From: Lactobacillus sp. W8174
GTDB lineage: Bacteria; Bacillota; Bacilli; Lactobacillales; Lactobacillaceae
DNA: 64,000 nt
NCBI RefSeq assembly: GCF_016100975.1
Contig: NZ_JACFRN010000003.1
Coordinates: 62,001 to 126,000 of the forward strand
Direction: 5' to 3'
The translations under genes were made by a program, and so were the position numbers. Positions 2,414-32,777 of the stretch are shown here, in pieces; positions within the stretch are counted from its first letter, which is position 1; each line of letters starts with the position of its first letter. Below the pieces are notes generated by a model, which was given only the letters and a program-made list of their open reading frames with translations, did not search any database and was not told the DNA's origin.

Positions 2414-2460
2414 CTTTTAAAAGGCTTACAATGAAATTAAGAGGAAAAGGAGGTCAAAAA

Positions 2461-4419: not shown

Positions 4420-4432
4420 TTTTTAGTAAAAT

Positions 4433-4515: not shown

Positions 4516-4535
4516 GTTTGTCTTTTTAGTAAACT

Positions 4536-6059: not shown

Positions 6060-6094
6060 GATTTACCTCCTTACTAATCCTTTCTACTAAATTT

Positions 6095-6211: not shown

Positions 6212-6237
6212 TAGGGTAAGAGAAAAGAGGTATCAAG

Positions 6238-8079: not shown

Positions 8080-8086
8080 ATAAGAC

Positions 8087-8125
8087 AAAAAAGCTAATTC
8101 GTTTTAATTACGAATTAGCCTTTTT
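8087..8125. terminator. Bidirectional terminator between BspA 2 and SLAP B1
   Basis: The perfect arms GCTAATTCGT (8093-8102) and ACGAATTAGC (8110-8119) are flanked by A and T runs, so it serves both convergent genes. The same hairpin follows BspA 3. Confidence 0.85.
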
Positions 8126-8142
8126 CTATAAGTCTAAAAGAT

Positions 8143-9663: not shown

Positions 9664-9840
9664 ATTATGACCTCACAAATTATGACCTTACAAAGATGAG
9701 CTTATAATTTAATGTTATCGTAACCCAAAATGAAACTCAAATTTATTTTATCTGGTAAATTTAATGGATTTTGTCTGGCTTTCATTATTTTTTACAACCA
9801 GGAAAACTATATTTTGCAATATTTTGGATTTGAAACGGCT

Positions 9841-9846
9841 TATAAT
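9841..9846 (+). promoter_or_regulatory. Candidate -10 box of BspA 3
   Basis: TATAAT lies 27 bases before the chosen start codon. No convincing -35 box at standard spacing is visible. Confidence 0.45.
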
Positions 9847-9873
9847 TAAGTTAATGAAAAGGAGGTCATGATA

Positions 9874-11880: not shown

Positions 11881-11892
11881 ACAAGACAAAAA

Positions 11893-11927
11893 GACTAATT
11901 CGTTTTTAATTACGAATTAGCCTTTTT
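11893..11927. terminator. Bidirectional terminator between BspA 3 and the Lys-rich secreted protein
   Basis: The arms CTAATTCGT (11895-11903) and ACGAATTAG (11912-11920) are followed by a T run on the plus strand and preceded by an A run. It is almost the same sequence as the terminator at 8087-8125. Confidence 0.8.
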
Positions 11928-11947
11928 ATTGGTAAAGAAATAGAAAA

Positions 11948-12709: not shown

Positions 12710-12744
12710 TTTGGTTTACTCCTTTAAATTTGATTTCAATATCC

Positions 12745-12840
12745 TTTATCGTTAGGCTGGTCATCACGTTTTGTCAGTTGATAGCTATTTTTAAATAACT
12801 AATAAATCAGCATTAAACTGATAGTCTCGTTTTTGCCAGG
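12745..12840 (-). pseudogene. Decayed 3' fragment of a second copy of the Lys-rich secreted protein
   Basis: Read on the minus strand, this stretch encodes QKRDYQFNAD, then a stop and frame change, then SYQLTKRDDQPNDK. These match KKRGYKFNAD and NKKLAKRDDKLIDE in the C-terminus of the protein at 11948-12709 in the same order. DNA identity is also visible (ATCAGCATTAAA and TCACGTTTTG are shared). No start or signal peptide remains, so it is a non-functional remnant. Confidence 0.65.
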
Positions 12841-12911
12841 CTCTACATATTGTCTATTATATTTGCTTGGACTATTTTTGTAAAACTAATATTGCTCTGA
12901 CCAGTAGCCAT

Positions 12912-14435
12912 TTAATCACCGGGAGGAGTAGACATAGTTGTCAGCTGCTTTTTAGCGGTTTTAACATACCAGACAGCTTCATCTACTTGCGTGACAGTTG
13001 CCTTATCAGACCTTAAAATAGCAGAAGCGTTTCTTAAGGCGCAATCATAATTAGACATGAGATTATCATAAGCGCTATTTTGAGCTAGATCTTTTCCCTC
13101 GTTAAAAAGTGTGAGCAGCTCCTGCTTGTCAGCTCCTGTCGCAATCTTTTGCCCATTTTCAGCCTGCTCAATCGTATTCAGTGCTTTTAGCTTTAACCCG
13201 CTGACGTATTTCACATCGTTCACCTTAATAAAGTTATTGCCATAGATTAATGCTTGCTTTTTTGCAGGGTAAGTTGGTTCTGAATTTGGCACCGAGTTTG
13301 GTTGGTTGGCATCAATCACACTAGCGTCACTGTAATTTAAACAATGATAAAACAGTTCCGCCTTATTTTCCTCAGGTACCCAGAGATACATTAAGCCATC
13401 AACTGTTAGATTACTGTATTGCGGCTTTATAATACGTTTACCAATTGTCTTGCCAGATGTGTCATAAAGTTCAACGCTGTTGTCTGTCACTGGCGTAACG
13501 TAAGTATAAACTAAGTCGCGGTAGTCAATGATAGGCAAATTCTTTTTCAATTTAACATTGTCCTCATCAACGTATTCATCCGGATAGTCGTGCAGTCTGT
13601 AAAGATAACCCTCAAAGCCATCATTTTGGTAAGGAATAACAGTTAAATCAAGTTTAATCTTCTGTCCTTTTTTCAGTTTACGTTTAACGGCAGAATAATT
13701 TACCGTTATGCTAGCGGTGTTCTTAAGAACAGTCGCTGACGAAACGCCGTTGTAGCGAGCGATGTGACCGTTAATATAGCCGACGTTAGCTGCTTTAATG
13801 TAACTATTATGTCCTAAAGAGTAAAAATATTTTCCTTTTATTTTGTGGGTAGGTACGTATTTGGGCTGGAAGTACCTTGCGACATCATTAAGGTAGTAAA
13901 AATATTTGGGTGCTTTGGTAGCAGTCTTAGCTTTTCCCTGGTACTTAACAACTGTATTAGTTCTTAGTTTCTTTCCCGTTGTTTTGCCAGTCTTGGTGTA
14001 AATCAGTACATCGTGTTTGATAGTCAATTTACCTTGTGTGATATTGCGCCCATTGACTTTTAAAACATTAGCACTATTAATGTAATAGTTATGTCCCAAG
14101 TGGTAAAACTTTTGTCCGTTAATTTTTTTAGTGCCGTAGTAGGGATAACTGGTTCTACTGTCATCATCATAAACTATCATTTCTGTAGTTAAATAGCCCT
14201 TGGGATCAGCGCTAAAGCCGTTAGGAATGTTATAGCTATGTGTACCCCGATTTTGCTTCAATTTTATTTTATGGCCTGACGGGTTGTAAACATAATCACT
14301 CTCAAGCAGTGTGACTTTTCCTTTGGCTTTCTGAGCTGCTTCTACTGTTTGGGGGTTAGCGGTATATGGCAAAAATTGAGTGGTGGATAAAGCCAGGGCT
14401 GTTAAGCCAATGCCAACTTTCTTGAAAAATTTCAT
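12912..14435 (-). CDS. SLAP-domain S-layer-associated surface protein B2
   Basis: A 507-residue secreted protein whose ATG at 14435 has GTGAGGTC upstream and a TACAAT box further up. Signal peptide to about residue 34 (QTVEAA), SLAP modules (KGKVTLLESDYVYNPSGHKI; QGKLTIKHDVLIYTKTGK; KIKGKYFYSLGHNSYIKAANV), a middle region (FEGYLYRLHDYPDEYV, VDGLMYLWVPEENKAELFYH) and a C-terminal FIVAR-like helical module. It is the near twin of the protein at 8143-9663, so it probably arose by duplication or gene conversion. It is followed on the minus strand by the remnant at 12745-12840. Surface display by SLAP domains is expected; the specific function is unknown. Confidence 0.85.
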   Translation of the reverse strand: MKFFKKVGIGLTALALSTTQFLPYTANPQTVEAAQKAKGKVTLLESDYVYNPSGHKIKLKQNRGTHSYNIPNGFSADPKGYLTTEMIVYDDDSRTSYPYYGTKKINGQKFYHLGHNYYINSANVLKVNGRNITQGKLTIKHDVLIYTKTGKTTGKKLRTNTVVKYQGKAKTATKAPKYFYYLNDVARYFQPKYVPTHKIKGKYFYSLGHNSYIKAANVGYINGHIARYNGVSSATVLKNTASITVNYSAVKRKLKKGQKIKLDLTVIPYQNDGFEGYLYRLHDYPDEYVDEDNVKLKKNLPIIDYRDLVYTYVTPVTDNSVELYDTSGKTIGKRIIKPQYSNLTVDGLMYLWVPEENKAELFYHCLNYSDASVIDANQPNSVPNSEPTYPAKKQALIYGNNFIKVNDVKYVSGLKLKALNTIEQAENGQKIATGADKQELLTLFNEGKDLAQNSAYDNLMSNYDCALRNASAILRSDKATVTQVDEAVWYVKTAKKQLTTMSTPPGD

Positions 14436-14579
14436 TTTATGACCTCACAAAAAACGCTTATGTTAATATCATTGTACCCTAAACTGATGTCTGAAATTGT
14501 TTTATTATATAAATTGTTAGAACTTTTGCGTGGCTTTCAATATTTTCGCATGATTTAGTTAGTTTTCAAATTAAGCAAT

Positions 14580-14628
14580 AAAAATAGAGTTAAACCACTC
14601 TTGTTTGGTGGATTAACTCTATTTTTTA
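14580..14628 (-). terminator. Strong hairpin terminator downstream of SLAP A2
   Basis: The arms TAGAGTTAAACCAC (14585-14598) and GTGGATTAACTCTA (14608-14621) are flanked by A-rich and T-rich runs. Read on the minus strand it ends the gene at 14631. Confidence 0.8.
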
Positions 14629-14630
14629 AT

Positions 14631-16154
14631 TTAACTCCATTCAGCGAAGTTTAAAGTACTTAATTGAATTTTGGTTGTGTCAAGTAGCCAAATTGCCTGT
14701 TTTACTTGAGCAATCGTTGCTTTTGGAGATTGTAAAATAGCAGAAGCAATCATCAAAGCATTATTATAATTACTTACTGCACTTTGTTGCTCACACTTAA
14801 CATTCTTGTTATTCTTATTTTCCACAAATTTTCTTTGCAATTCTTGCTTATCCTTATCTGTTGCTACTTTCTGATCGTTCTCAGCGTCTTTAGCAGTATT
14901 GAGAGGGGTAAGTTTAATTCCACTGGCAAAAGTAACATCACTAGCTTTGACAAAGCTGTTAGTATAGCGAATCTTATCTTCTGTCGATTCAATCAGTTTA
15001 TTGTTTTTGTCAAACTCTGGTTTTTTAAGGTCAGTACCGTCGTTATTAACAAAATAGTTTCTGTCTATTCTGTAGGTTAAAAAGTGATAAAACAGTTCTG
15101 CTTTGTTTTCGCTAGGTACCCATAAGTAATAAAGACCATCAACGGTCAAGGGGCTTTGCTTACGGTTCCTGTAACTGATACCTGTTGGAGTACCGTCAAA
15201 ATTATAGAATTTAGTATTTGTCGTAGTATTAGGTCTTACATAGGTGAATGTAAGTTCATCGTAACTTGATGTTGGCAAATAGTTTCTCAATTTAATGTAA
15301 TTTTGACCAACATATTCGTTAGGATAATCGTGCAGGCGATAGATATAGCCTTCAAAGTCTTCTGCCCAAGGCTGGACCGCTAAATCAACTTTAATTTTTT
15401 GGTCCTTTTTTAGAACGTGTTTAGTAGAATCATTGGTTAATGTTTGAGTTGTCGTATTTTTGAGAACAGTGGCATAGGTAACGCCATTATACATAAGAGG
15501 ATACCCATCTATGCTGTCAACGTTATTTGCTCTAATATAACGATTTTTCCCTATTGCATAACAGTCTTTACCATTAACTGTTTCTGTCGGCAAATAATAA
15601 AAGGTTGCCTTTTGCTCAGAAACGTTAAATTTTGCAAAGTAATATTTTTGCTTGGATTGAGTTTGCTTAACCTGACCCTGATAGTTAACGACTGATTTAA
15701 CTGGTAGAGTCTTGCCTTTTAGTTTACCGGTTTTAGTATAGATCGCAGATCTGTGATTCAAAACCAGCTTACCGGTCTTAGAGCTCTTGCCGTTAACGTT
15801 ATTGACATCACCGTCATTAATATATTCTCCTTGACCAATTTTATAGTATTTTTGCCCATTAATCATTATTGTGCCGTAATAATCTAAGGAGTCGACATCA
15901 AAAGAAGAAACATAGCAGAAACCATTAACATCTGCTTCAATTACAGAATAATTCCCGTTTTTTCTTGCTTTAAGTCTTTGACCATATTGATTATATACGG
16001 GTGCGTCATTGACTAAAGTAATTCTGTTTTTAGCTAGTTTTTGTGTTTTTGGCGCAGCTTGCACTGTTTGAATATGATTTAGACTTGGCAGCAGCGGACT
16101 AATTGTCAACACGGTTGCGGCTAAGCCAAGACCAATTTTCTTGAAAAATTTCAT
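14631..16154 (-). CDS. SLAP-domain S-layer-associated surface protein A2
   Basis: A 507-residue secreted protein starting at the ATG at 16154 (AATGAGGTG upstream, TATAAT at 16198-16193). Signal peptide to about residue 33 (TVQAA), SLAP modules (KNRITLVNDAPVYNQYG; KTGKLVLNHRSAIYTKTG; TVNGKDCYAIGKNRYIRANNV), a middle region (FEGYIYRLHDYPNEYV, VDGLYYLWVPSENKAELFYH) and a FIVAR-like C-terminal helix bundle (ASAILQSPKATIAQV). It is closest to the protein at 4536-6059 (subfamily A). It is the outermost member of the island and is divergent from rarA. The role is that of a wall-bound surface protein, inferred from the domains. Confidence 0.85.
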   Translation of the reverse strand: MKFFKKIGLGLAATVLTISPLLPSLNHIQTVQAAPKTQKLAKNRITLVNDAPVYNQYGQRLKARKNGNYSVIEADVNGFCYVSSFDVDSLDYYGTIMINGQKYYKIGQGEYINDGDVNNVNGKSSKTGKLVLNHRSAIYTKTGKLKGKTLPVKSVVNYQGQVKQTQSKQKYYFAKFNVSEQKATFYYLPTETVNGKDCYAIGKNRYIRANNVDSIDGYPLMYNGVTYATVLKNTTTQTLTNDSTKHVLKKDQKIKVDLAVQPWAEDFEGYIYRLHDYPNEYVGQNYIKLRNYLPTSSYDELTFTYVRPNTTTNTKFYNFDGTPTGISYRNRKQSPLTVDGLYYLWVPSENKAELFYHFLTYRIDRNYFVNNDGTDLKKPEFDKNNKLIESTEDKIRYTNSFVKASDVTFASGIKLTPLNTAKDAENDQKVATDKDKQELQRKFVENKNNKNVKCEQQSAVSNYNNALMIASAILQSPKATIAQVKQAIWLLDTTKIQLSTLNFAEWS

Positions 16155-19210: not shown

Positions 19211-20026
19211 TTAAATCCAATTTTCTAAATTTTGTAATACTTTTTGTACTTGAGGATTGTCTACCTCTTTTAAAAAATCGTGATCTAAGTAATAAAGCGG
19301 GTAAAAAACATTATTTGGGGAGAGAGCTTTTAATGATTTGCTGTACTTAAAGGGAACTTCTTTGTCTGATATACTGGCAGCGGAAAAGATAGGAGGAAAT
19401 TTTTTTAACTCCTCTTTAGTAATTGAATATTTGCTAACTTCGTTTTCCTTGATATCATAAGCTTTTTGCAACTCGCATTTTTCTACTAAATATAAGTATA
19501 GGGGATATCTGGACAAAGCCGAGTCATCATGAATAAAGTTAGTTGTATTTATTGAGAGAATTAAATCTTTTGAAATAGGTTTATCTGTTAGTTTTTTACT
19601 CCGATTGCTATCTTTGAGATCATAATAGCCATAAAAATTAATAATCTTAGTGGGGTTTTTAATAGTGCTTAGTTTGATAATCTGGTTAACTAACCAGAAC
19701 ATAATGAAGCCCCCAGCCGAACGACCACATAACATGTAATTGAAATTTTGTGGCTTAATTATAGTTTGATATAATTCTAAGAATGATTGTAAAGAAGTTT
19801 CTAAAATTGTATTTAAGGATGAATTTGGAGCTAATGGGTAATCTAGAGCAATAACTTCAACCCCCTTTTTTAAGAAAGTACTAGTTAAAGCGTATGGAAT
19901 ATCGTTTCGTGTTCCATATATTAAACCACCTCCGTGAAAATAAATTAAGATGTTAGAAACTGGGCTTTCAGGCATCCATATAGTGTATTGCATTGAATTT
20001 GATAATTTTTGAATATTAGGTTTCAT
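19211..20026 (-). CDS. Alpha/beta hydrolase (HSL/esterase type) linked to the PucR gene
   Basis: A 271-residue cytoplasmic hydrolase. The oxyanion-hole motif FHGGG is near residues 30-34, the nucleophile elbow is GRSAGG (about 100-105), an acid candidate is the Asp in SISDKE, and the histidine is in LDHDFL near the end. This is the order of the hormone-sensitive-lipase type of alpha/beta hydrolase, which cleaves esters or amides of small molecules. It overlaps the 3' end of the PucR gene by 11 bases on the same strand, with GGAG seven bases before the ATG. It is therefore cotranscribed with the regulator of the divergent carbamoyl cluster. It may release or prepare the substrate of that cluster; this is inference. 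Confidence 0.75.
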   Translation of the reverse strand: MKPNIQKLSNSMQYTIWMPESPVSNILIYFHGGGLIYGTRNDIPYALTSTFLKKGVEVIALDYPLAPNSSLNTILETSLQSFLELYQTIIKPQNFNYMLCGRSAGGFIMFWLVNQIIKLSTIKNPTKIINFYGYYDLKDSNRSKKLTDKPISKDLILSINTTNFIHDDSALSRYPLYLYLVEKCELQKAYDIKENEVSKYSITKEELKKFPPIFSAASISDKEVPFKYSKSLKALSPNNVFYPLYYLDHDFLKEVDNPQVQKVLQNLENWI

Positions 20027-21596
20027 TATTTTTCTCCATACTAAGTAAATAAGTTGAAATTTGATAATTGATCAAGTCGATCTGATTTTCAAAATCAATG
20101 TGTAATAAATTTTGAATCTTTTTTATCCTATAACGCACTGTTTTTTCATGTACAAATAGTATTTCAGATGCTTTTTTGTAATTTTTGTTGCTATCAAAAA
20201 ACACTTTTAGCGTTCTAAATAAATCATTATTTTTCTTCTTTAAATCTATCAGGTTTTGCGGGATAAATTTGTTTAAAGCATTAGGATTTTTAACTGATAA
20301 AAAGTATCTAAATATGCCCAAGTGTTCTATTGAAAAAGCGTGACCAATGAAAATTTTTGAATTGAAACTCAAGGCTTTTAAGCATTCATCTAAAATAGTT
20401 TGCATGTTGCGTCTTGTTTTGACTGAGCTAATAACAACTGAAAGATTTGCGTGAAGATTAAAATATTTAGACAATTTCTTTTCAATTGTTTCTGAGTTTA
20501 GCTGATTGGAGAGGGCTTCAATATTAAAAAGTATGATTATATAATCACGATGTTCAGAATAAATACTATATCTTTCACAATTTTGAAGTATTGTTCTGAT
20601 ATTATAAAGCTCTATTTTGCTCAAATCTGAAGTAAAAAAAGCACAGGCTTGATAATATTTATAATGGTTTAAATTAACTTCGTCTAATAAAGTTTCGAGT
20701 TCTCTGTCGTCTAAAACAGGATATTGCAATATAGTGTCTGCAATGTTGTTAAAATGAGCATATTCTTTTTGCTTTAGGGCATACTCTGTTTGTAATTTAT
20801 TTTGAATAATATCAATAAAATTTTCGAAAATCATTGTATCTGATTCACTTAATTTTTGAGAATCATGAATTACTAACAGTGAATTGTTTTCAGTTGTATT
20901 GTTGTTTGTAAATTCAATTTTTGTAGCATTATATGTTTGATAATTATCAAATGATTCAAGTCTAAATAAATAATATTTATTTTTGACAAATTCAGAATCT
21001 TCTTCCGTATAAGGTCTCCCTTCATCAATCACTACATTTTTAGGCATGTCTTTGCTTCTATAATAGGTCGAGTTTGACGCTAAATATAATAAGCAGGGAT
21101 AGTGAGTTATATTATTAAACTCTCTTAGTAAAATTTCGTAAGAGACAAAACTATCAGCTAAAGGTATCAACCTCTGTCTTGTTTTGTAGTAGTTTTCCAA
21201 AACTAGTGATTGATTATTTAAAATTGGTTGATATATCGCTAATAAAATTTTTTCATAATTTAACTCAGTACCAACTTTGATTAACGGAATTCTATATTTA
21301 TAGCACAAGTTTATAAACCAACGTGGTACCAATTTAATAAGTCTATCAACTTTTACTATAATGCCGCTAATTCCGATCTTCACCATCTTTTTAAAAAAAG
21401 TATTCACTTCGTCATATGACAATTTCTGTAAAGCATAAAAAGATGTTAAAATCATTTGATTTTTACGTGACCATTTTTCTATGTCCAAAGCTTCTAATAC
21501 CATTACTGAATTAATCTCAGTATTTTTTTTCAAATTTGGTGTTAGAAGCTTGCTTTCTTTAAAAATAGGTAATTCTAACAGATCGTATAGTTTCAT
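20016..21596 (-). CDS. PucR-family transcriptional regulator
   Basis: A 526-residue cytoplasmic regulator. The N-terminal 120 or so residues match the PucR ligand-sensing domain (LLELPIFKESKLLTPNLKKNTEINSV start, GISGIIVKVDR, IPLIKVGTELNYE). The C-terminus holds the PucR-type helix-turn-helix (LKVFFDSNKNYKKASEILFV, HEKTVRYRIKKIQNLL, about residues 460-500). PucR of Bacillus subtilis controls purine and ureide breakdown. Here the gene is divergent from the FdrA-YlbE fusion (143-base gap), so it most likely controls that operon and itself in response to a ureide-like molecule. The downstream hydrolase overlaps it. The family assignment is secure; the effector is unknown. Confidence 0.88.
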   Translation of the reverse strand: MKLYDLLELPIFKESKLLTPNLKKNTEINSVMVLEALDIEKWSRKNQMILTSFYALQKLSYDEVNTFFKKMVKIGISGIIVKVDRLIKLVPRWFINLCYKYRIPLIKVGTELNYEKILLAIYQPILNNQSLVLENYYKTRQRLIPLADSFVSYEILLREFNNITHYPCLLYLASNSTYYRSKDMPKNVVIDEGRPYTEEDSEFVKNKYYLFRLESFDNYQTYNATKIEFTNNNTTENNSLLVIHDSQKLSESDTMIFENFIDIIQNKLQTEYALKQKEYAHFNNIADTILQYPVLDDRELETLLDEVNLNHYKYYQACAFFTSDLSKIELYNIRTILQNCERYSIYSEHRDYIIILFNIEALSNQLNSETIEKKLSKYFNLHANLSVVISSVKTRRNMQTILDECLKALSFNSKIFIGHAFSIEHLGIFRYFLSVKNPNALNKFIPQNLIDLKKKNNDLFRTLKVFFDSNKNYKKASEILFVHEKTVRYRIKKIQNLLHIDFENQIDLINYQISTYLLSMEKNNET

Positions 21597-21669
21597 ACTA
21601 AATCTCCTTAAATTATTTTTCTTTATCCATTTGGATAAAAAAAGATTAAATAGTTTTACTTTTTTACCA

Positions 21670-21698
21670 TTGTAAGCGCTTATTAGCTTCCATACAAT
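21670..21698 (+). promoter_or_regulatory. Promoter with overlapping cre site upstream of the FdrA-YlbE operon
   Basis: TTGTAA (21670-21675), 17 bp, TACAAT (21693-21698). TGTAAGCGCTTATT (21671-21684) matches the CcpA cre consensus at 12 of 14 positions and covers the -35 box, which predicts repression by preferred sugars. Confidence 0.65.
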
Positions 21699-21738
21699 GT
21701 GAATTGTAAAACTTAATAAATAAATTGGAGGTATGAAA

Positions 21739-24700
21739 ATGCTTAAGACGGTGATCTTAAAAGATAACTATCAAGATTCAATTAATCTTATGTTATTAAC
21801 AAATAAGATTAATGATTTGTCTGAAGTTCAGATGAGTCAAATAATGATGGGTACAGAAGCCAACAAGGATATTTTAAATAATACTAATTTATTGACTGAA
21901 GAAGCTGAAGCTGCATCACCTAATGACTTAATGATAGTTGTTAGAAGTGATGATGATAAGGTTATGGATAAGGTTTTACCAGCAGTCCATTCATTTCTTG
22001 AAGATCTTTCTACTAAAAAAGATGATTCAGGTAATGAAATTGAATCAGTAGATAATTGGGATGATGCTCTAAAGGCAATGCCTGATGCAAATTTAGCCCT
22101 ATTTAGTATTCCTGGAGAGTATGGTGCTCCAGAAATGGAAAAGGCTTTAAGACATGATTTAAATGTGTTCTCTTTCACAGATAATGTCTCTATAGAAGAT
22201 GAAGTCAAACTAAAAAAGCTGGCTCATAAAAAGGGACTTTTAATGATGGGTCCCGATTGTGGCACAGGAATTATTTCAAGTATTCCATTGGCATTTACTA
22301 ATGTTGTATCACCAGGCAATATTGGTATTGTCGGAGCATCAGGTACTGGAATTCAAGAAGTAACTACTATTATAGACAGACTGGGCAATGGTGTTATCCA
22401 CGCTATTGGTACTGGTGGACGCGATTTGAGCGACAAAGTAGATGCAATTACTGTTAAGGATGCTATTGCAGCTTTAGAAGACCACGAACCTACAGATGTT
22501 ATTTGTGTCATATCTAAGCCACCTGCAAAGGAAGTTAGAGATGAAGTTATGGAAATCCTTGAAAGCTGTAATAAACCGGTTGTTGCAGACTTTCTAGGTG
22601 AAAGACCTACCCATTATGAGGGTAATGTGTACTTAGCACATACATTGGAAGAGACAGCAAAAATTGCAGTTGACTTAGCAGCAGGTCAAAAAGTTAAAGA
22701 GAATTATTTTGAAAAAGTTGAATTACCAGCTAATGTAAAAACTTTATCAAAAGATAAAACTATTAAGGGTTTATATTCTGGCGGTACTTTAGCTAATGAA
22801 GCCGGCATGTTAATTTCTGAAGCACTTGACTTAGGTCATTTGACTAAAGAAGAAGGTTATATTCTAAAAACGGATGGATATGATGTCATTGACTTGGGAG
22901 ATGATGTTTATACCCAAGGTAAGCCACACCCAATGATTGATCCTGAGGTTCGCATTAATAAGATGCGCGAATATTGTCAAGATCCACATACAGGTGTTAT
23001 TTTGCTTGATGTTGTTTTGGGTTATGGTGCAAGTGATGACATGGCAGGTGCTTTAATTCCTGTAATTGATGAAGAAAAAGCCAAGGCTCAGAAAGAAGGC
23101 AGACCACTTTACTTTGTGGCTACAGTTGTAGGAACTAATAAAGATCCACAAAACTATGACGAAACAGTTGAACGCTTAAAAAATCATGGAGTTTTGGTTC
23201 AAAAGAGTAATGCAAAAGCTGTTCAGTTAGCTTTGAAATTAAAGGGAATACAGATATCTGAACCAGATAAGAAAGTCGTACCTTATACTGGTAAAAAGGT
23301 TGCTTTACCAAAAGTTAATGATAATGTAAAAGAATTATTAACCACAAAACCTAGAGTAATTAATGTAGGTATTAGTAGTTTTAATGAATCAATCGTCAAA
23401 TATGGTGGCAAAACTGTTCAATTTAATTGGAAACCACGTGCTAATGGCAACAAGCGAATGATCAAGTTGCTCGATGCCTTAGAAAAATATGATGATGAAA
23501 TTGATAGGGATAATGATAAAGTAATCCAAAGATTTAAGGATGCTAAGCCTTTCTTAGTTGACGTGGTTCCAGCTAAGACAGTTATCCCGGAATTAAATAC
23601 AGAAAATAAAACTTTGTTACATGCGGGTCCACCAATTACCTATACAGAAATGACAGGTCCAATGCAAGGTTCATGTGTTGGTGCAGCTATATTTGAAGGC
23701 TGGGCAGAAAATGAATCTGAGGCTCGAAAGTTACTGGAAAATGGAGAAGTAAAATTAATGCCTTGTCATTCTGTTCATGCAGTAGGGCCAATGGGAGGCA
23801 TTACTTCAGGTAATATGCCTGTAGTTATTGTTGAAAACAGATTGGACAATACAAGAGCATATTGTACCTTGAACGAAGGTATTGGTAAGGTATTAAGATT
23901 TGGTGCATATTCCCAAGAGGTTATTGATCGTTTAGTTTGGATGAGGGATGTTCTAGGCCCGGTTTTATCAAAAGCTTTGAAGAAAACTGATGATGGTCTT
24001 AACTTAAATGTCTTAATTGCTCGCTCAATTACAATGGGTGATGAATTTCATCAAAGGAATATTGCTGCTTCGGCCAACTTCTTGTGTGCAATGGCACCAC
24101 TTATTACTGAATTAGATATTAGTAAAAAAGACAGGTATGACGTAATTAAGTTCTTGGCAGATACTGACCAGTTTTTCCTTAACATTATGATGGCTACTGG
24201 TAAGTCAATTGCTGATGCCGCTAGAAAGTACCAAAAAGGAACTATCGTAACTGCCATGGCTAGAAATGGACGTGACTTTGGTATCAGAATTGCCGGTATG
24301 GGAGACCAATGGTTTAAGGCACCTGTAAATACTCCTAAAGGTCTTTACTTTGCAGGATTTTCTGAAGATGATGCGAATCCGGATATTGGTGACTCTTCAA
24401 TTACAGAAACTGTTGGTGTCGGTGGCATGGCCATGGTAGCAGCTCCTGGTGTAACCAGATTTGTCGGTGCTGGCGGATTTGAAGACGCATTAAGAATTTC
24501 TAACTCGATGGAAAAAATTAATACAACTCATAATCCTAATTGGACCATCCCAACCTGGGATTTTAAGGGTACAAATTTAGGTATTGATATTAGAAAAGTT
24601 GTGGAAACTGGGATTGAACCAATTATTAATACGGGTATTGCACATAAAAAACCAGGTGTCGGTCAAATTGGTGCTGGTACGGTTAAAGCTCCGCTGACTT

Positions 24701-24756
24701 GCTTTGAAAAAGCTCTGGAGGCTTATGCTAAAACTCTAGGTATTACAGTTGACTGA
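21739..24756 (+). CDS. Fused FdrA (AllF) - YlbE (AllG, DUF1116) protein, carbamoyltransferase-type
   Basis: A 1005-residue protein. The ATG at 21739 is preferred over 21733 because GGAGG ends at 21731. Residues about 1-510 are FdrA-like, with a CoA-ligase/succinyl-CoA-synthetase-like core (GPDCGTGI, GNIGIVGASGTGIQEVT, GTGGRDLSD, VADFLGERP, SGGTLANEA, LLDVVLGYGAS). Residues about 525-1005 are DUF1116/YlbE-like (LLHAGPPITYTEMTGPMQG, HSVHAVGPMGGITSGNMPV, LNEGIGKVLRFGA, MGDEFHQRN). In E. coli these are separate genes, fdrA (allF) and ylbE (allG); with ylbF (allH) they were reported to form oxamate carbamoyltransferase. Here they are one chain followed by the AllH-like and carbamate kinase genes. 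Activity is inferred as carbamoyl transfer to phosphate; the actual substrate is unproven. Confidence 0.85.
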   Translation: MLKTVILKDNYQDSINLMLLTNKINDLSEVQMSQIMMGTEANKDILNNTNLLTEEAEAASPNDLMIVVRSDDDKVMDKVLPAVHSFLEDLSTKKDDSGNEIESVDNWDDALKAMPDANLALFSIPGEYGAPEMEKALRHDLNVFSFTDNVSIEDEVKLKKLAHKKGLLMMGPDCGTGIISSIPLAFTNVVSPGNIGIVGASGTGIQEVTTIIDRLGNGVIHAIGTGGRDLSDKVDAITVKDAIAALEDHEPTDVICVISKPPAKEVRDEVMEILESCNKPVVADFLGERPTHYEGNVYLAHTLEETAKIAVDLAAGQKVKENYFEKVELPANVKTLSKDKTIKGLYSGGTLANEAGMLISEALDLGHLTKEEGYILKTDGYDVIDLGDDVYTQGKPHPMIDPEVRINKMREYCQDPHTGVILLDVVLGYGASDDMAGALIPVIDEEKAKAQKEGRPLYFVATVVGTNKDPQNYDETVERLKNHGVLVQKSNAKAVQLALKLKGIQISEPDKKVVPYTGKKVALPKVNDNVKELLTTKPRVINVGISSFNESIVKYGGKTVQFNWKPRANGNKRMIKLLDALEKYDDEIDRDNDKVIQRFKDAKPFLVDVVPAKTVIPELNTENKTLLHAGPPITYTEMTGPMQGSCVGAAIFEGWAENESEARKLLENGEVKLMPCHSVHAVGPMGGITSGNMPVVIVENRLDNTRAYCTLNEGIGKVLRFGAYSQEVIDRLVWMRDVLGPVLSKALKKTDDGLNLNVLIARSITMGDEFHQRNIAASANFLCAMAPLITELDISKKDRYDVIKFLADTDQFFLNIMMATGKSIADAARKYQKGTIVTAMARNGRDFGIRIAGMGDQWFKAPVNTPKGLYFAGFSEDDANPDIGDSSITETVGVGGMAMVAAPGVTRFVGAGGFEDALRISNSMEKINTTHNPNWTIPTWDFKGTNLGIDIRKVVETGIEPIINTGIAHKKPGVGQIGAGTVKAPLTCFEKALEAYAKTLGITVD

Positions 24757-25582
24757 TTCATGTGTTGCTCAAATTAGTAGTTATATCTATCCTGTTAACA
24801 AATTTGGTCAAATTGGCAGAGTACATTCAATTTTTGCACATTCACTTAATATTCAAGTTGGTTTGCGATTAATAAATATAAGTTGCTTTGATAATTACCT
24901 GTCATGTTTTGGCATAAATATTTCTGAAAAAAATTTAAAGTCAGTTATCCAAAGTGTAACCGAAAACAATATAGTTAAATTTTTGGATAATAATATAGTT
25001 TTTTACACGCAAGACGGGATTAAAAGAATCGATGTTAAAAACTTTAATATAGTCGAATTGAAAATTAATCCTCTAAATTATTTTCCAGAAAAGGGACTAA
25101 AGAAAACTTTAGAAGTCTTAAACAATTATAAAGTGGATCAAAGAATAGGTATTCCTAATAATACTTTATTAAAAAAATTCTCTGATGAAATGACTACATT
25201 TAAAGATTTCAATCCAGAGCAAATTGTTACTTGGCTACTTGGTAGAGGAAAGGGATTAACGCCAAGCGGTGATGATATTCTTTGTGGATATATTTTTGTG
25301 CTATTGCTTGTCGATAAAGCAAATACTTATTTATCTAGTTTGGTTAAACAAATAAGAAATAATTTAAAGCTTACTACAGACGTTAGTAAAGCTTATCTAA
25401 TCTGTGCAACGCAAGGATATGTTAATTCCAAAGTTTATCAATTATATAAATCCTTTAAAAACCATAATTTTAAAGATATAGACAGTGAGCTGAATTCCAT
25501 TCTTGAAATTGGTCATACATCCGGCAAAGATTTGAGTTATGGAATTAAACTAGGAATTTTAGCTAGTTTAAACACTCCTTAG
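24749..25582 (+). CDS. DUF2877 / AllH (YlbF)-like subunit
   Basis: A 277-residue protein starting at TTG 24749, overlapping the end of the fusion gene by 8 bases, so it is probably translationally coupled. The DUF2877 signature GRGKGLTPSGDDILCG lies near residues 168-183, with a second conserved piece GHTSGKDLSYGI near the C-terminus. DUF2877 (YlbF/AllH) is the third partner of FdrA and YlbE in the E. coli allantoin region and is reported as a subunit of oxamate carbamoyltransferase. The gene order here (F-G fusion, H, transporter, carbamate kinase) supports the same enzyme complex. It is more AT-rich than its neighbours. Confidence 0.85.
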   Translation: MTDSCVAQISSYIYPVNKFGQIGRVHSIFAHSLNIQVGLRLINISCFDNYLSCFGINISEKNLKSVIQSVTENNIVKFLDNNIVFYTQDGIKRIDVKNFNIVELKINPLNYFPEKGLKKTLEVLNNYKVDQRIGIPNNTLLKKFSDEMTTFKDFNPEQIVTWLLGRGKGLTPSGDDILCGYIFVLLLVDKANTYLSSLVKQIRNNLKLTTDVSKAYLICATQGYVNSKVYQLYKSFKNHNFKDIDSELNSILEIGHTSGKDLSYGIKLGILASLNTP

Positions 25583-25601: not shown

Positions 25602-26843
25602 ATGAAAAAAGATGAAGAGGGCGTAAAAGTTTCCAAAAATTATTGGATAAGAGTTGTCATTATATTTTTCCTAGGCTGGATATTGATGTATGGTACACGA
25701 ACCATTTTCAATCCTATTATGGGTATCGTTGGCAAGCAATTTGGCTTAAACAACACACAATTAGGATTAGCAAATAGTATTTTCTTTTTAACTTATGCCA
25801 TTTTCCAGGTACCATTTGGTGCTTTGGGTGATAAGTATGGAAGAAAATTAGTGATTACAATAGGTTTTATTGTATTAGCTGTAATGAGCTGGCTATCCGG
25901 AATTGCTGCAAGTTTTACTTTGTTTTTAATTATTAGAGCCCTTGCGGGTGTGGGACAAGCCTCTTATTATGGTCCGCAGTACGCTTTGTCATCAGAAGCT
26001 ATTCCACAAGATAAACTTACTTTAGGTACCGCTATTATCAATTCTGGGATGGCCTTTGGTACTTCTGGCGGATACTTGCTTTCAAGCTATTTAGTTTTAC
26101 AAAACCATCAAAGTTGGAAAGTACCATTCTTTGTGGTAGCAATTCCAACATTCATCCTGGCGATAGTGTTCTTTACATGTTTAAAGGAAAAAGTTTATAG
26201 ACCTAAAGAAAATGAAGTGCAGGAGAAACAACCAGAAGAAAAAGTTTCCCTTAAAAAAATTTTTACAGACAAGAATCTAGTTGCAGCCTTTATTCTTTGC
26301 TTCTGCAGTATTTACGCTAACTTTGTGATTATTACTTGGCTACCATCTTTCTTAATTTCCAATAGAGGATTTCAAGGTGGCAGTGTAGGCTTTATTTCTT
26401 CCTTGGTACCATGGGCTTCAATACCAGGAGCATTAATTTTTGCGAAATTAGCTGATAAAACTGGTAGCACTAAAAAATGGATATATATTTTAGTTCCACT
26501 TTCAATCATTTCAGTATTTGCAATTGCTTTCGTTTCTAATAAAACTTTGCTGATTGCAGTGTTGATCTTATATGGCTTGACGGGTAAATTAGCGATTGAT
26601 CCTATCATAGTGGCTTATGTAACTAAAAAGGCACCTTATGGTTCTTTGTCAACTACATTAAGTGCCTACAATTTTATAGGTATGTCTGGCTCTATTTTGG
26701 CACCATATATTACTGGCTGGTTAGCAGATGTAACAGGACAAATGGAAATTGGCTTTTACTTAGGTTGTGGTTTGCTAATAATTGGCTTGATTGTCTTTGC
26801 TGTAATGGCAACTGACTCAGAGAAAGGGGAGACAGCTGTATAA
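25602..26843 (+). CDS. Major facilitator superfamily transporter of the carbamoyl cluster
   Basis: A 413-residue membrane protein with 12 predicted membrane segments. AAAGGAG lies seven bases before the ATG. The MFS loop 2-3 motif is GALGDKYGRKLV (about 75-86). The start FLGWILMYGTRTIFNPIMGIVGKQFGLNNTQLGLANSIFFLTYAIFQVP resembles the anion:cation symporter branch that takes up organic anions. The stop codon overlaps the start of carbamate kinase (TAATG at 26841-26845). Genomic position argues that it imports the carbamoyl substrate (an oxalurate- or ureide-like anion) or exports the product. The substrate is not determined. Confidence 0.85.
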   Translation: MKKDEEGVKVSKNYWIRVVIIFFLGWILMYGTRTIFNPIMGIVGKQFGLNNTQLGLANSIFFLTYAIFQVPFGALGDKYGRKLVITIGFIVLAVMSWLSGIAASFTLFLIIRALAGVGQASYYGPQYALSSEAIPQDKLTLGTAIINSGMAFGTSGGYLLSSYLVLQNHQSWKVPFFVVAIPTFILAIVFFTCLKEKVYRPKENEVQEKQPEEKVSLKKIFTDKNLVAAFILCFCSIYANFVIITWLPSFLISNRGFQGGSVGFISSLVPWASIPGALIFAKLADKTGSTKKWIYILVPLSIISVFAIAFVSNKTLLIAVLILYGLTGKLAIDPIIVAYVTKKAPYGSLSTTLSAYNFIGMSGSILAPYITGWLADVTGQMEIGFYLGCGLLIIGLIVFAVMATDSEKGETAV

Positions 26844-27778
26844 TGGCAACTAGTGTAATCGCCCTTGGTGGAAATGCGATCTTAGAAAAGGATCCAACAG
26901 ACATTGGGCAAAAAGAAACGGTTAATAGAGCTACACGCTATATTGTTGAATATATTATGGCTGGAAATAAGGTGGCGATTTGTCACGGTAATGGACCTCA
27001 AGTAGGTAATTTGTTACTACAACAAAGTGCTGCTAATTCAAAAAAGAATCCAGCATTTAAGCTAGATACTTGTGGAGCAATGACGGAAGGTAGTATTGGC
27101 TACTGGATTCAGCAGGGCTTGGACAATGCATCTCAAGAGCTGGGTGAAAATGTTAAGTCCCTGACTGTTATTACTCAATCTGAAGTTGATAAAAATGATC
27201 CTTCGTTTAAATCTCCGAGCAAGCCTATAGGTCCTTTTTATACTAAAGAAGAAGTGGTTGAGCTTCAAAGAAACAGTAATGATACATTTATTGAAGACGC
27301 GGGTCGTGGCTATAGAAAAGTTGTACCTTCTCCTAAGCCAGTAAAAATAGTTGAAGGGGATATTATTAAGGATACTGTTAACGCTGGCATTGTACCAATC
27401 GTTGCCGGTGGTGGCGGTATACCAGTTATTATAGAAGAAAATAAAATTAAGGGCGTAGAGGCTGTTATTGATAAAGATTTTGGCTCTGAAAAAGTTGCAG
27501 AAGGAATCTCAGCAGATAATTTAATAATTTTAACAGCCGTAGATAATGTTTACATCAATTTTGGAAAAAAAGATCAAAAAGCTTTGAGTCATATTACAGT
27601 TTCTGAAGCTGAAATATATATAAAACAGGGACAATTTGCGAAAGGAAGTATGTTACCTAAGATTCAAGCAGCTATTTTGTTTGTTAAAAATCACCCAGAT
27701 AGAAAAGCAATTATAACTTCAATTTCTAATTTACCAAATATTTCAGAAAATGTTGGAACCATAATTACTTACAAATAA
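26843..27778 (+). CDS. arcC: Carbamate kinase (catabolic)
   Basis: A 311-residue cytoplasmic kinase of usual family length: carbamoyl phosphate + ADP gives ATP + carbamate (then ammonia and CO2). It carries the amino-acid-kinase motifs IALGGNAIL (about 5-13), ICHGNGPQVGNLLLQQ (about 47-62), PIVAGGGGIPVI (about 188-199), VIDKDFGSEKVA and LTAVDNVYINFG. It lies in the AllFGH-type operon rather than with arcA/arcB, so it is the functional analogue of E. coli AllK (YbcF), harvesting ATP from carbamoyl phosphate released upstream. The start overlaps the MFS stop. The symbol is family-based. Confidence 0.93.
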   Translation: MATSVIALGGNAILEKDPTDIGQKETVNRATRYIVEYIMAGNKVAICHGNGPQVGNLLLQQSAANSKKNPAFKLDTCGAMTEGSIGYWIQQGLDNASQELGENVKSLTVITQSEVDKNDPSFKSPSKPIGPFYTKEEVVELQRNSNDTFIEDAGRGYRKVVPSPKPVKIVEGDIIKDTVNAGIVPIVAGGGGIPVIIEENKIKGVEAVIDKDFGSEKVAEGISADNLIILTAVDNVYINFGKKDQKALSHITVSEAEIYIKQGQFAKGSMLPKIQAAILFVKNHPDRKAIITSISNLPNISENVGTIITYK

Positions 27779-27796: not shown

Positions 27797-29017
27797 ATGA
27801 GAAAAAAAGTAAAGTTGTCAATGGTTAATCAGATTTTGATAGCCGTTATTCTTGGTGTAATATTTGGGTTTGCATTACCTGGTTTTTCAGTTCAATTAAA
27901 GATAATTGGTGATATTTTTTTAAAATTAATGCAGATGTCCATACCAATTTTGGTACTGGGTCAAATAATTCAGGCAGTAGGAGGTATTAAACCTAATGAA
28001 CTGAGTAAATTAGGAATTAAAACTATTGTCATTTTTGCAATCTCCTCATTACTTGCTGCTGCTTTCGGTGCATTAGTTGGAATATTATTTAAACCTGGAA
28101 TTGGTGTGCATCTCACCAAGGTTGCTGAAAAAGCAATACATGTTAAGTCCGTTTCGTTAAGTGAAACAATTTTAAGCTTTTTTACTAGCAACATCTTCGA
28201 ATCTTTATCTAATGGGACAATTATTCAGATTATTATTTTTGCGATTTTTTTTGGTATTGGATTAAGCAAATTTATGGAGAAAAAGCCTAAATCAAAATTG
28301 CTTGACTTAATAATCGACTTTAATGATGTCATTATTCAATTAGTAACCTGTGTAATGTTCTTTGCCCCAATAGGCATCTTTGCACTGATTGCTTCTACTA
28401 TTAGCAATTTGGGTATTAAAATAATTTTGCCGCTGATAAAATACTTATTCTCCTATGGGTTTGCAACATTCGCTTATTTGTTAATTTGGATTGTAATTAT
28501 ATCTTTATATCTTAAAGTTAACCCAATTAAATTAATCAGCAATATGTCAGAAATGTCGTTGATGGCTTTAGCTACTACTTCCTCGGCGATTACTTTACCG
28601 ATTGAAATGAATGAAGCTAAAAACAAACTAGGCTTAAAAGATAGAATTACTAACTTGGTTTTACCATTAGGCATGTCATTAAATTCTAATGGTTCTGCCA
28701 TGCATATGGCCATAACGGTGATTACAATTGCGCAATTATATAATATTAACTTTACTTTAGATAAGATGTTTTATCTTATTGTAATATCAACATTTGTGTC
28801 ACTTGCTAATGCTGTTGTTCCAGGAGCAGGTTTGGTTTCACTAGCAATAATTGTTCCTCAAATGGGATTACCAGTTGAAAGTATAGCAATTTTTGCAGGT
28901 GTAGAATGGTTCGTAGGGATGCTCAGAACTATTTTAAACGTTAATTCTGATGTTTATTCTGCACTAATGGTTGGAAAGTCGGCTGATGCCATTGATTATG
29001 AAGTATTTAATAAATAG
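27797..29017 (+). CDS. Dicarboxylate/amino acid:cation symporter (DAACS family)
   Basis: A 406-residue membrane protein with eight main membrane segments. It has the DAACS signatures: SSLLAAAFGALVG, a serine-rich loop (LMALATTSSAITLPIEMNEA, about 253-272) and SLNSNGSAMHMAITVI (about 293-308), which takes the place of the NMDG region. The family imports glutamate, aspartate, serine or C4-dicarboxylates with Na+ or H+. It is the last gene of the carbamoyl operon (18 bases after carbamate kinase) and is followed by a strong terminator. It may import the substrate or exchange the keto/amido-acid product. The ribosome binding site is weak (GTAGG). Confidence 0.85.
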   Translation: MRKKVKLSMVNQILIAVILGVIFGFALPGFSVQLKIIGDIFLKLMQMSIPILVLGQIIQAVGGIKPNELSKLGIKTIVIFAISSLLAAAFGALVGILFKPGIGVHLTKVAEKAIHVKSVSLSETILSFFTSNIFESLSNGTIIQIIIFAIFFGIGLSKFMEKKPKSKLLDLIIDFNDVIIQLVTCVMFFAPIGIFALIASTISNLGIKIILPLIKYLFSYGFATFAYLLIWIVIISLYLKVNPIKLISNMSEMSLMALATTSSAITLPIEMNEAKNKLGLKDRITNLVLPLGMSLNSNGSAMHMAITVITIAQLYNINFTLDKMFYLIVISTFVSLANAVVPGAGLVSLAIIVPQMGLPVESIAIFAGVEWFVGMLRTILNVNSDVYSALMVGKSADAIDYEVFNK

Positions 29018-30311: not shown

Positions 30312-31061
30312 TTAGTTATTCTGAAAATTACTCAAAAACTTGACGGTTTTTTCATTTTGCGGGTGATTGAATAATTGATCAGGTTTACCTTGTTCAATAA
30401 TTATTCCGTCGCTGATGAAAAACATTTGATCGGAAATCTCCTTCGCAAACGCCATTTCGTGGGTTACGATAATCATCGTTAAACCAGTAGTAGCCAGATT
30501 CTTCATGACGCTTAAAACTTCACCGACCATTTCAGGATCCAAAGCACTAGTAGGCTCATCAAATAACAGAATTTCAGGATCCATGCAGATAGCACGGGCA
30601 ATCGCAACCCGTTGTTGTTGTCCACCTGAAAGTTGGCTGGGACGAGCATTAACGTATTGCTCCATACCTACTTTTTTCAGATTAGCAAGTGCAATTTTAC
30701 GCGCCTCGTCTTTTGACCGTTTCAATACTAATTCTTGACCTACCATACAATTAGCTAAAACGTTCTTATTTTCAAACAAGTCAAATTGTTGGAAAACCAT
30801 GCCGACTTTAGCACGATAAATATTACGATTGTAGTTTGGTGCCAAAACATTTTCACCACGAAAATCAACTTCACCGGCAGTAGGTTCTTCAAGCAGATTG
30901 ATACAGCGCAAAGTAGTTGATTTACCGCCACCTGAAGGACCGATAATGGTGGCAATTTCACCTTTATTAATGTCAAAAGAGATATCTTTTAACACTTGGT
31001 GTTCACCGAATGTTTTCTTGATGTGCTTTAAACTTAAAATAGTTTCGTTTGTTTCAGTCAT
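30312..31061 (-). CDS. Polar amino-acid ABC transporter ATP-binding protein (lysine-regulated)
   Basis: A 249-residue ATPase: Walker [10 protein letters not shown] (about 39-47), Q-loop [14 protein letters not shown], signature LSGGQQQR (about 143-150), Walker [16 protein letters not shown]-loop VTHEM. These are the GlnQ/ArtP-type features of ABC importers for polar amino acids. The start codon overlaps the stop of the upstream fused binding protein-permease (shared base at 31061), so the two form one transporter. A lysine riboswitch leads the operon, which points to lysine or another cationic amino acid as substrate. Confidence 0.92.
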
Positions 31062-32686
31062 TAGTTCTTAGCCTCCATGTCTTTTGGTGTGCCCACTTGA
31101 ACTTGGTTTGCCATTAAGTTGTAATTCTTACTTCCTTGGAGGTGTTTTTCAATTAAATTGAAAATTCTGGTAATGGTAAAGGTCAAGATGAGGTAGATAG
31201 CAGAAATTGTCAGGTAAGTTGGGAAGAACTTAAATGTCTGACTCGCAATAGTTGAACCAACGAAGAACAACTCTGATACGGAGATGATACTCAAAACTGA
31301 GGTATCCTTGATATTAACGATAAATTCGTTAGTAATTGAAGGAAGACAGTTTTTGATTGCTTGTGGCAGAATAATGTGCCACATTCTCTGGTTGTGGGTC
31401 ATTCCTAACGCACTGGCTGCTTCAAATTGACCTTCGGGTGTAGAAATAATTCCTCCCCGAATAATTTCGGCTAAATATGCTCCAGTGTTAATGGAAACAA
31501 TGATTAGTGCGGCCACCGTTCTGTCAATATTCAAGTGCCAGAACTGAGCAATACCATAGTAAATCACGGCGGCTTGAACCATCATTGGCGTACCCCGAAA
31601 AATCTCGATATAAACTGAAAGCAGCCAGTTGACAAACTTAAGCAGCCATCTTTTACCGGTAGTAGTTGGTGTAGGAATAGTTCTCACAATACCCACTGCC
31701 AGACCGATAAAGAAACCTACAATGGTACCAACTGAAGCTAAAAGCAAGGTCATACCGATACCGTTTAAAATCATGCCGCCATATTGGCGCCACATTGATA
31801 CTAACCACGGTTCTGATTTAGCCTTTTTGCCTTTTTTATCACTATCAGTTTTAGGCTGCTCCTTAACAGCTTCAGTCATTAACCTTACCCTTTTTGCTTG
31901 GGGAATAGTAGCTAAAATTTGGTTAACGCTCTTAAGCAGCGCCTTGTTGGGCTTGGCAATTCCGATTGAAGTGACAGATTCTTCTTTAGTAGCGTGAAAA
32001 CCAGCCATTTTGCTGACAGGAATTGACTTAATGTCAGGATCAACCATCTTAAAGGAAGTTGACTCAGTGTCTTCGGCAACATAGCCGTCAATGGTACCGG
32101 AGATTAAACTTTGCCGCATTGCCGCAAAATCGCGCATAGCCGGTTGTCTCTTAGCACCTTTTAACTGCTTGATCAGATCATAGTGGAAAGTACCTTGTTG
32201 TGCTGTTAATTTAGCACCCTTAAAGTCGGTCAGCTTTTTAGCGTTGGCATATCTGCTGTTAATCTTGGTAATTACCACAAAAGTACTGTTTCTATATGGC
32301 TTAGAGAAATTAATGGCTTTTTCACGTTCAGCTGTTGGACTCATCCCAGCGATAATCAAATCAGCTTTGCCACTGGTTAAAGCAGGAAGCAAACCGTCCC
32401 ATTCGGTCTTAACAACTTCTACTTTTCTATGTAATTTTTGACCAATAATTTTGGCAATTTTAACGTCATAACCATTGGCGTATTCTTTTGAGCCCTCAAT
32501 TGGCACAGCACCATTGGCATTATTAGTCTGTGTCCAATTGTACGGCTGATAATTAGCTTCCATGGCGACTTTTAGCGTACCATCGTCCTTTTTGGCGTTA
32601 ACTTCATTCAGACTAAAATTAGCCCCAATGCCCAAACAGGTGAATAAGGCAACTAAGGTAGCCAGCCACTTAAATCTTGACTTCAT
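31061..32686 (-). CDS. Fused substrate-binding protein and permease of an amino-acid ABC transporter
   Basis: 541 residues from the ATG at 32686 (GGAGG eight bases upstream; the longer reading frame to 32770 would run through the riboswitch terminator). A signal sequence or anchor (1 to about 35, ...NEVNA) is followed by a family-3 solute-binding domain (about 40-275: LKVAMEANYQPYNW, GYDVKIAKIIGQKL, WDGLLPALTSGKADLIIAGMSPTAERE). The permease domain follows (about 300-525), with the EAA loop (EAASALGMTHNQRMWHIILP). Such SBP-permease fusions are common in lactic acid bacteria for glutamine, arginine or lysine. The lysine riboswitch in the leader suggests lysine. It forms an operon with the ATPase downstream. 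Confidence 0.92.
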   Translation of the reverse strand: MKSRFKWLATLVALFTCLGIGANFSLNEVNAKKDDGTLKVAMEANYQPYNWTQTNNANGAVPIEGSKEYANGYDVKIAKIIGQKLHRKVEVVKTEWDGLLPALTSGKADLIIAGMSPTAEREKAINFSKPYRNSTFVVITKINSRYANAKKLTDFKGAKLTAQQGTFHYDLIKQLKGAKRQPAMRDFAAMRQSLISGTIDGYVAEDTESTSFKMVDPDIKSIPVSKMAGFHATKEESVTSIGIAKPNKALLKSVNQILATIPQAKRVRLMTEAVKEQPKTDSDKKGKKAKSEPWLVSMWRQYGGMILNGIGMTLLLASVGTIVGFFIGLAVGIVRTIPTPTTTGKRWLLKFVNWLLSVYIEIFRGTPMMVQAAVIYYGIAQFWHLNIDRTVAALIIVSINTGAYLAEIIRGGIISTPEGQFEAASALGMTHNQRMWHIILPQAIKNCLPSITNEFIVNIKDTSVLSIISVSELFFVGSTIASQTFKFFPTYLTISAIYLILTFTITRIFNLIEKHLQGSKNYNLMANQVQVGTPKDMEAKN

Positions 32687-32742
32687 TTTGAAAACCTCCA
32701 CAAAATATGTTTCAAATAAAGCCAATACAATAAAAGCGTAAA

Positions 32743-32777
32743 CAAAAACCTCGCTGTTAGTCAAAAACAACGAGGTT
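32743..32777 (-). terminator. Riboswitch expression-platform terminator
   Basis: On the minus strand AACCTCG pairs with CGAGGTT and is followed by a T run, between the lysine aptamer and the start codon at 32686. It is the likely attenuator controlled by lysine. Confidence 0.8.

Follow-up and report, generated by a model that had tools for sequence, protein, structure and literature searches.

A putative oxamate carbamoyltransferase fusion in Lactobacillus points to a small module placed variously on AllF, on AllG, or in a gene of its own

We analyzed a 64,000-nucleotide stretch of the genome of Lactobacillus sp. W8174 (the window: contig NZ_JACFRN010000003.1, positions 62,001 to 126,000) in which a single gene encodes, in order along one chain, the core of AllF (FdrA), a linking module, and AllG (YlbE). 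The fusion itself is ordinary and already in the databases and hence is not new. The new point is the module, a conserved segment of about 50 to 55 residues whose owner changes. We consider it probable that the fused gene supplies two parts, AllF and AllG, of an oxamate (oxamic) carbamoyltransferase; that this enzyme, with a separately encoded AllH, cleaves an N-carbamoyl compound brought into the cell (most likely oxalurate); and that the module is an element shared by AllF and AllG.

RESULTS

AllF, a linking module, and AllG are encoded in one frame

An earlier note on this DNA had described FdrA and YlbE as one unbroken chain of 1,005 residues, and the frame, the domains, and the relatives bear this out. 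Positions 21739 to 24756 of the forward strand form a single open frame with an ATG at 21739, closely preceded by GGAGG, a stop codon at 24754 to 24756, and zero internal stops. Pfam places CoA_binding (PF02629) at residues 192 to 284, Ligase_CoA (PF00549) at 345 to 499, and AllG (PF06545) at 671 to 886, the last with 313.4 bits against a cutoff of 27; the NCBIfam FdrA model (NF004760) covers residues 1 to 581 with 672.1 bits against a cutoff of 433. The domain check suggested in the note had named PF06263, to which the chain has no match; AllG is PF06545. In the Protein Data Bank (PDB), 3dmy (E. coli FdrA) and 3clq (an AllG relative from Enterococcus faecalis) each match one half of the chain, at residues 96 to 583 and 586 to 1000, respectively. 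These matches and an alignment of the junction put the E. coli-type gene boundary at about residues 584 to 588, not near residue 515 as had been proposed; the latter position is just N-terminal of the linking module. The parts of the gene, with the evidence for each, are as follows.

21739 to 24756, forward strand: fused AllF-module-AllG gene, 1,005 residues (frame, Pfam, NCBIfam, and PDB matches)
21739 to 23262, forward strand: AllF (FdrA) core, residues 1 to 508, with a succinyl-CoA synthetase alpha-like fold at about 11 to 320 and then the Ligase_CoA domain (Pfam, PDB sequence match, and structure comparison)
23317 to 23490, forward strand: roving module, residues 527 to 584 approximately, found in relatives at the AllF C terminus, at the AllG N terminus, or as a separate small gene (alignments and module profile)
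23452 to 23538, forward strand: predicted continuous helix, residues 572 to 600, spanning the E. coli-type gene boundary (AlphaFold2 model and spacing counts)
23500 to 24753, forward strand: AllG (YlbE) part, residues 588 to 1005, PF06545 (Pfam, PDB match, and structure comparison)

The read-through is real, because three other genomes of the genus keep one frame at 92% identity. The frame is also unbroken in many other genera, and a sequencing or assembly artefact is thereby excluded as the source of the fusion.

Within the genus, the fusion was found in 4 of 75 genomes. The earlier note had asked how common it is in Lactobacillaceae, and there the answer is mixed: a relative occurs in 15 of 350 genomes, which we read as having one frame in 8, stops between the halves in 4, and a frame broken by unknown bases, a split pair, and a fragment in 1 each. 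Across the order Lactobacillales, 84 of 295 genomes have a relative, and one open frame runs across both halves in 37 of these 84, as read from the table. When the window protein was used as bait, 74 of 80 loci were fused and 6 were split; these 80 come from 270 confirmed stretches, and the choice of bait biases the set toward fused loci. The fusion is also annotated, as "acyl-CoA synthetase FdrA" (WP_002355249.1), in E. faecalis record NZ_CP143580.1. A search of the open-licence literature found no paper on the fusion or on the module, which is not proof of novelty, since subscription papers are mostly outside its reach.

Two apparent variants were set aside. The surplus length of a 1,241-residue "AllH-AllF fusion" (L256) resembles GC-rich read-through ahead of AllF, and an insertion within AllF of another genome (G304) is a run of unknown bases. 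Separately, another Lactobacillaceae genome (G154) retains a remnant of the AllG end, with 65% identity over residues 895 to 1002 and a stop codon, a case of operon decay, and Clostridium sp. MCC353 carries, within 12 kb, the fusion, two more AllG genes, and a second AllF clipped by the end of the locus. In a plasmid collection, AllF or AllG relatives occur in 188 of 72,556 records, 137 of them typed as conjugative and 96 from Escherichia, and some of these records are chromosome sized.

The module changes place among relatives

In the junction alignment, residues 527 to 584 (approximately) are a conserved module that is more than the tail of AllF. It is found in four locations: at the C terminus of AllF in E. 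coli and in the split genes of Lactobacillales; at the N terminus of AllG in many members of a second, distant clade; in a small gene of its own, intact and lying between allF and allG, in which case the products of both those genes lack it; and in midchain in the AllF-AllG fusions. A four-state tree implies that its placement changed at least nine times.

We built a module profile from 21 rows covering all placements, among which seven columns are invariant (N, G, F, W, P, G, and L); N542, G544, F548, and P566 of the window protein are among the conserved positions. Over 398 sampled genomes of the window's phylum, the profile gave 64 matches in 57 genomes. From frame size and position, we read 21 of the matches as stand-alone modules, 37 as N-terminal parts of AllG, 4 as C-terminal parts of AllF, and 2 as belonging to full fusions. 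By a comparison of the lists by eye, all 57 are among the 58 genomes of the same sample that have AllF or AllG; the exception, G675, has an AllG match only. The module has no Pfam or NCBIfam family of its own, its only convincing match being to the last 50 or so positions of the FdrA model, and 3dmy was the sole convincing match when the PDB was searched with it.

In all 18 loci read (of 21), the stand-alone gene, 53 to 79 codons long when the longest frame is taken, shares its strand with AllF and AllG and sits between them, in one case (L238) 1.3 kb ahead of AllG. Three genomes that carry them (G802, G925, and G991) are single-contig assemblies, which makes draft errors unlikely there. Over 224 codons in four close pairs, there were 94 synonymous-codon changes and 33 amino acid changes, the pattern expected for translated, constrained genes. 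On a simple scale, most of the stand-alone modules have a ribosome-site-like stretch upstream, with a nil score in 3 of 18. They are candidates for small genes between allF and allG that annotation may miss. In three loci (L241, L244, and L254), a stand-alone module stands beside paired adjacent AllG genes.

Among 50,697 phage records, 6 have module matches, which are unannotated and resemble host DNA. The plasmid matches listed (50 of 156, not opened singly) place the module mostly under DUF1116 or FdrA annotations, with no clear stand-alone case seen among them.

The module lies at a nearly fixed distance from AllG when both are on one chain

When the module and AllG are on one chain, the spacing between the positions of W564 and N592 varies little: it is 27 to 28 residues in the fusions of the clade that holds the window (78 rows), 27 to 31 in a second clade of fusions (16 rows, 12 of them at 29), 29 in a third fusion, and 26 to 28 where AllG carries the module (17 rows). 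Counted end to end for modules and AllG proteins on different chains, it is 27 to 69 (27 rows).

An AlphaFold2 model of the fusion, built on 45 sequences, had a mean predicted local distance difference test score (pLDDT) of 86.5 and a predicted template modeling score of 0.77. Its AllG part superposes on 3clq with a Z score of 48.3 and a root mean square deviation (rmsd) of 2.3 over 407 residues, and the fold of its AllF half is that of succinyl-CoA synthetase alpha (Z score of about 18). The module is modeled as helix-strand-helix-strand, followed by a single helix (residues 572 to 600) that runs across the E. coli-type boundary. The residue numbering of 3clq begins at about 54 to 56, which is consistent with an N-terminal module having been left out of the crystal.

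The simplest reading is that the module is an element common to AllF and AllG, anchored to AllG through a rigid helix and bridging to AllF. In E. coli, AllF would then lend AllG a piece, and sharing the module would leave the halves free to be encoded as two genes, either of which may carry it, as three genes, or as a fusion. The nearly fixed spacing to AllG and the helix across the boundary make the "three-gene" enzyme look like a four-module enzyme. We therefore lean, with less assurance than for the assignment of the gene itself, toward an oxamate carbamoyltransferase of four modules rather than three, in which a module of about 50 residues would sit at the AllF-AllG interface. Many genomes of the phylum would have it as a small subunit in its own right, and elsewhere AllF, AllG, or both would carry it; E. 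coli AllF would complete AllG in trans, and the fused chains would lock a ready-made interface.

The fused state changed at least three times

The main tree was built from 143 rows of AllF plus AllG (95 fused and 48 split), 19 of 162 loci having been omitted as cut short or identical. On it, the fused state requires a minimum of three changes, its groups being the 78-row clade that holds the window, a 16-row clade made up largely of Lachnospiraceae and related groups, and a single Paenibacillus (L106) that has a split row (L104) as its closest neighbor. Three changes were still needed on a 100-row tree with the module columns removed. A single fused clade was tried and rejected by the approximately unbiased test (p-AU of 7.6e-88; log-likelihood difference of 196; 32 rows, LG+G4). 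The trees of 143, 100, and 32 rows were all drawn from one set of loci. Three fusions and one fusion followed by two splits would be equally costly, so that the trees imply at least three changes and the number of fusions is not settled, because changes on a tree do not separate gain from loss.

The earlier note had taken the fusion as evidence that the two partners act together in a 1:1 ratio. This is supported for the two: AllF and AllG are necessarily 1:1 here because they are covalently joined, and the repeated fused/split changes fit a partnership of the two. In agreement, excerpts of PMC11326118 report for E. coli similar amounts of AllF and AllG by SDS-polyacrylamide gel electrophoresis, with the authors' remark that a Western blot did not show likewise.

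Among the matches listed, the nearest relatives outside the genus are from Enterococcaceae, at up to 78% identity, versus 63 to 65% over the full length within the window's own family. The GC content at third codon positions is 0.20 to 0.29 in the operon genes and 0.22 to 0.40 in nine other sampled genes of the window, seven of which are at or above 0.33. A horizontal gain would fit both the identities of the relatives and these values.

The fusion lies in a cluster with AllH, carbamate kinase, and two transporters

The genes around the fusion, with the evidence for each, are as follows.

19211 to 20026, reverse strand: alpha/beta hydrolase adjoining the regulator (Pfam and neighborhood comparison)
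20016 to 21596, reverse strand: divergent PucR-type regulator (Pfam and neighborhood comparison)
24749 to 25582, forward strand: AllH (PF11392), the third subunit, with a mechanically assigned TTG start (Pfam, 99.9 bits against a cutoff of 25)
25602 to 26843, forward strand: MFS transporter, candidate ureide importer (Pfam, NCBIfam, and neighborhood comparison)
26843 to 27778, forward strand: carbamate kinase (TIGR00746, 380.6 bits against a cutoff of 358.25)
27797 to 29017, forward strand: SDF-family symporter of the dicarboxylate/amino acid type (Pfam and neighborhood comparison)

If the TTG start is right, the first 8 bases of AllH are shared with the end of the fusion. AllH has conserved GLTPSGDD and GHTSG-like stretches, and its predicted model is confident (mean pLDDT of 95.2); a PDB sequence search with AllH was empty, the best Foldseek E value was 0.037, and the best VIA-align Z score was 5.1 over 73 residues, so we claim no known fold. 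Between the regulator and the fusion, within 21597 to 21738, TGTAAGCGCTTA resembles a catabolite-response site.

In the fetched DNA of the 74 fused loci, we found the hydrolase in 67, PucR in 57, AllH in 63, carbamate kinase in 64, the MFS transporter in 42, and the SDF symporter in 43. Of 120 loci, 101 have a relative of the hydrolase within the DNA fetched around AllF, near fused and split clusters alike, and the hydrolase is possibly an extra enzyme of ureide use. The seven hydrolase relatives that were compared all have HGGG and GRSAG motifs.

Elsewhere, the window encodes four proteins of 506 to 507 residues with SlpA surface-layer domains (4536 to 16154, reverse strand), three DUF285 proteins (2431 to 11880, forward strand), and an ABC transporter with its solute-binding and permease domains on one chain (31061 to 32770).

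Proposed reaction and probable source of the substrate

The cluster holds AllF, AllG, AllH, and carbamate kinase, matching the four genes of E. coli allFGHK. According to excerpts of PMC11326118, the purified E. coli AllF-AllG-AllH proteins make oxalurate from carbamoyl phosphate and oxamate, all three genes are needed, and the subunit composition could only be estimated. The genes for that enzyme were identified only in 2024, so that the earlier note's description of it as poorly studied is outdated. By itself, the fusion is unlikely to be the complete enzyme, because the E. coli enzyme needs AllH too and AllH is a separate gene here. The "oxamate" assignment of the window protein is inherited by homology from E. 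coli.

We propose that a ureide would be imported, with the MFS transporter as the candidate importer; that the fused AllF-AllG protein and AllH would convert the N-carbamoyl compound (oxalurate) and phosphate to carbamoyl phosphate and the amide (oxamate); and that the neighboring carbamate kinase would convert carbamoyl phosphate to ATP, ammonia, and CO2, in a sequence resembling the final two steps of arginine fermentation.

The genome of the window (G000, 99.99% complete) has zero AllD or AllE matches at an E value of 1e-20 and zero AllC matches at 1e-60, and its match to the allantoinase (AllB) model is below the cutoff (256.7 versus 357.85 bits). Since the allantoin-to-oxalurate genes were not found in it, the substrate would have to be imported. 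We think that it is most likely oxalurate, or ureidoglycolate where AllD lies in the cluster.

We tabulated AllB, AllC, AllD, and AllE in 59 Lactobacillales genomes, 43 being all those read as fused and 16 being hand-picked from the split-only ones. The 16 split-only genomes all had AllB, AllD, and AllE, with AllC above the cutoff in 15 and broken in one. Among the 43 fused genomes, AllD was present in 19, AllB in 11, AllC in 12 (6 above the cutoff), and AllE in 11, and 22, including that of the window, had none of the four; at least two of the 43 (G551 and G460) also hold a split pair beside such genes. There is no clean rule, since 1 of 6 and 1 of 20 split loci in two sets had none of the four genes in the fetched DNA and 39 of the 74 fused loci had at least one.

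DISCUSSION

Alternative readings

These counts bear on the most serious alternative, that the fused enzyme of clusters lacking allantoin genes performs the same chemistry on another imported N-carbamoyl compound in place of oxalurate. The 22 fused genomes devoid of all four genes, set against 16 split-only genomes that have them, and the frequency of MFS and SDF transporters in fused clusters speak for it. Against it, the 19 fused genomes with AllD (ureidoglycolate dehydrogenase), which in several, such as E. faecalis, stands at the end of the cluster, point to ureidoglycolate or oxalurate; the occurrence of split pairs with none of the four genes nearby means that the separation is not clean; and AllFGHK sets lacking the upstream genes are reported in nitrifiers (excerpts of PMC12625717). 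We regard this alternative as possible but distinctly less probable than oxalurate cleavage. It seems very unlikely that the database name is correct and that the protein works as an acyl-CoA synthetase, with oxamate or some other acid as its substrate. The AllF half does have the succinyl-CoA synthetase alpha fold with CoA_binding and Ligase_CoA domains, and in the window protein a His aligns with the succinyl-CoA synthetase motif, but none was seen by eye in the alignment of E. coli AllF. The 1,005 residues contain no ATP-grasp Pfam match (a separate ATP-grasp subunit was not searched for), and the oxalurate synthesis reported for E. coli AllFGH (PMC11326118) also argues against a synthetase. 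An assembly artefact, refuted by the relatives that share the frame, has next to no chance of being correct.

Returning to the oxamate carbamoyltransferase with a shared module, several observations weigh against our reading of it. The model rests on 45 related sequences and, taken in its entirety, fails to superpose on 3dmy (rmsd of about 19), so the arrangement of the AllF domains and the module is unsure. E. coli AllF was solved alone, and to judge from residue numbers its module region seems at least partly visible, so the module can sit on AllF without AllG. Nor is the module strictly constant: F replaces W in 3 of 18 stand-alone copies, and the L238 copy lacks GG. Fused or split status and gene content both follow lineage, and their association is therefore no independent evidence. 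Finally, with no upstream genes found, a different carbamoyl compound could be the substrate.

Relation to known systems

The closest characterized system is E. coli AllFGH (FdrA-YlbE-YlbF) with AllK (excerpts of PMC11326118 and PMC9843812), which likewise has homologous AllF, AllG, AllH, and carbamate kinase in one operon and has the module. The window differs in having AllF, the module, and AllG on one chain, MFS and SDF transporters, and a PucR-type regulator, and in that searches for AllB, AllC, AllD, and AllE did not find the allantoin-to-oxalurate genes in its genome. E. faecalis has the same fusion in a nearly identical cluster (hydrolase, PucR, fusion, AllH, MFS transporter, carbamate kinase, and symporter), which continues in NZ_CP143580.1 with AllD, a gene not found in the window genome.

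In the arginine deiminase pathway, catabolic ornithine transcarbamylase and carbamate kinase act in succession: a ureido compound is phosphorolyzed to carbamoyl phosphate, which then yields ATP. The chemistry proposed here would work alike, but the transcarbamylase of that pathway belongs to another family; the fused chain has no match to the Pfam domains of the aspartate/ornithine transcarbamylase family.

The natural single-chain AllF-AllG protein may provide a stable construct. The roving module suggests where AllF and AllG must meet and is a small test piece that can be cut, which makes the question of how a three-gene transcarbamylase is assembled directly testable in E. coli K-12. Clusters that lack the allantoin genes suggest that ureides produced by other organisms or by the host may sustain some lactobacilli and enterococci, yielding them ATP and ammonia.

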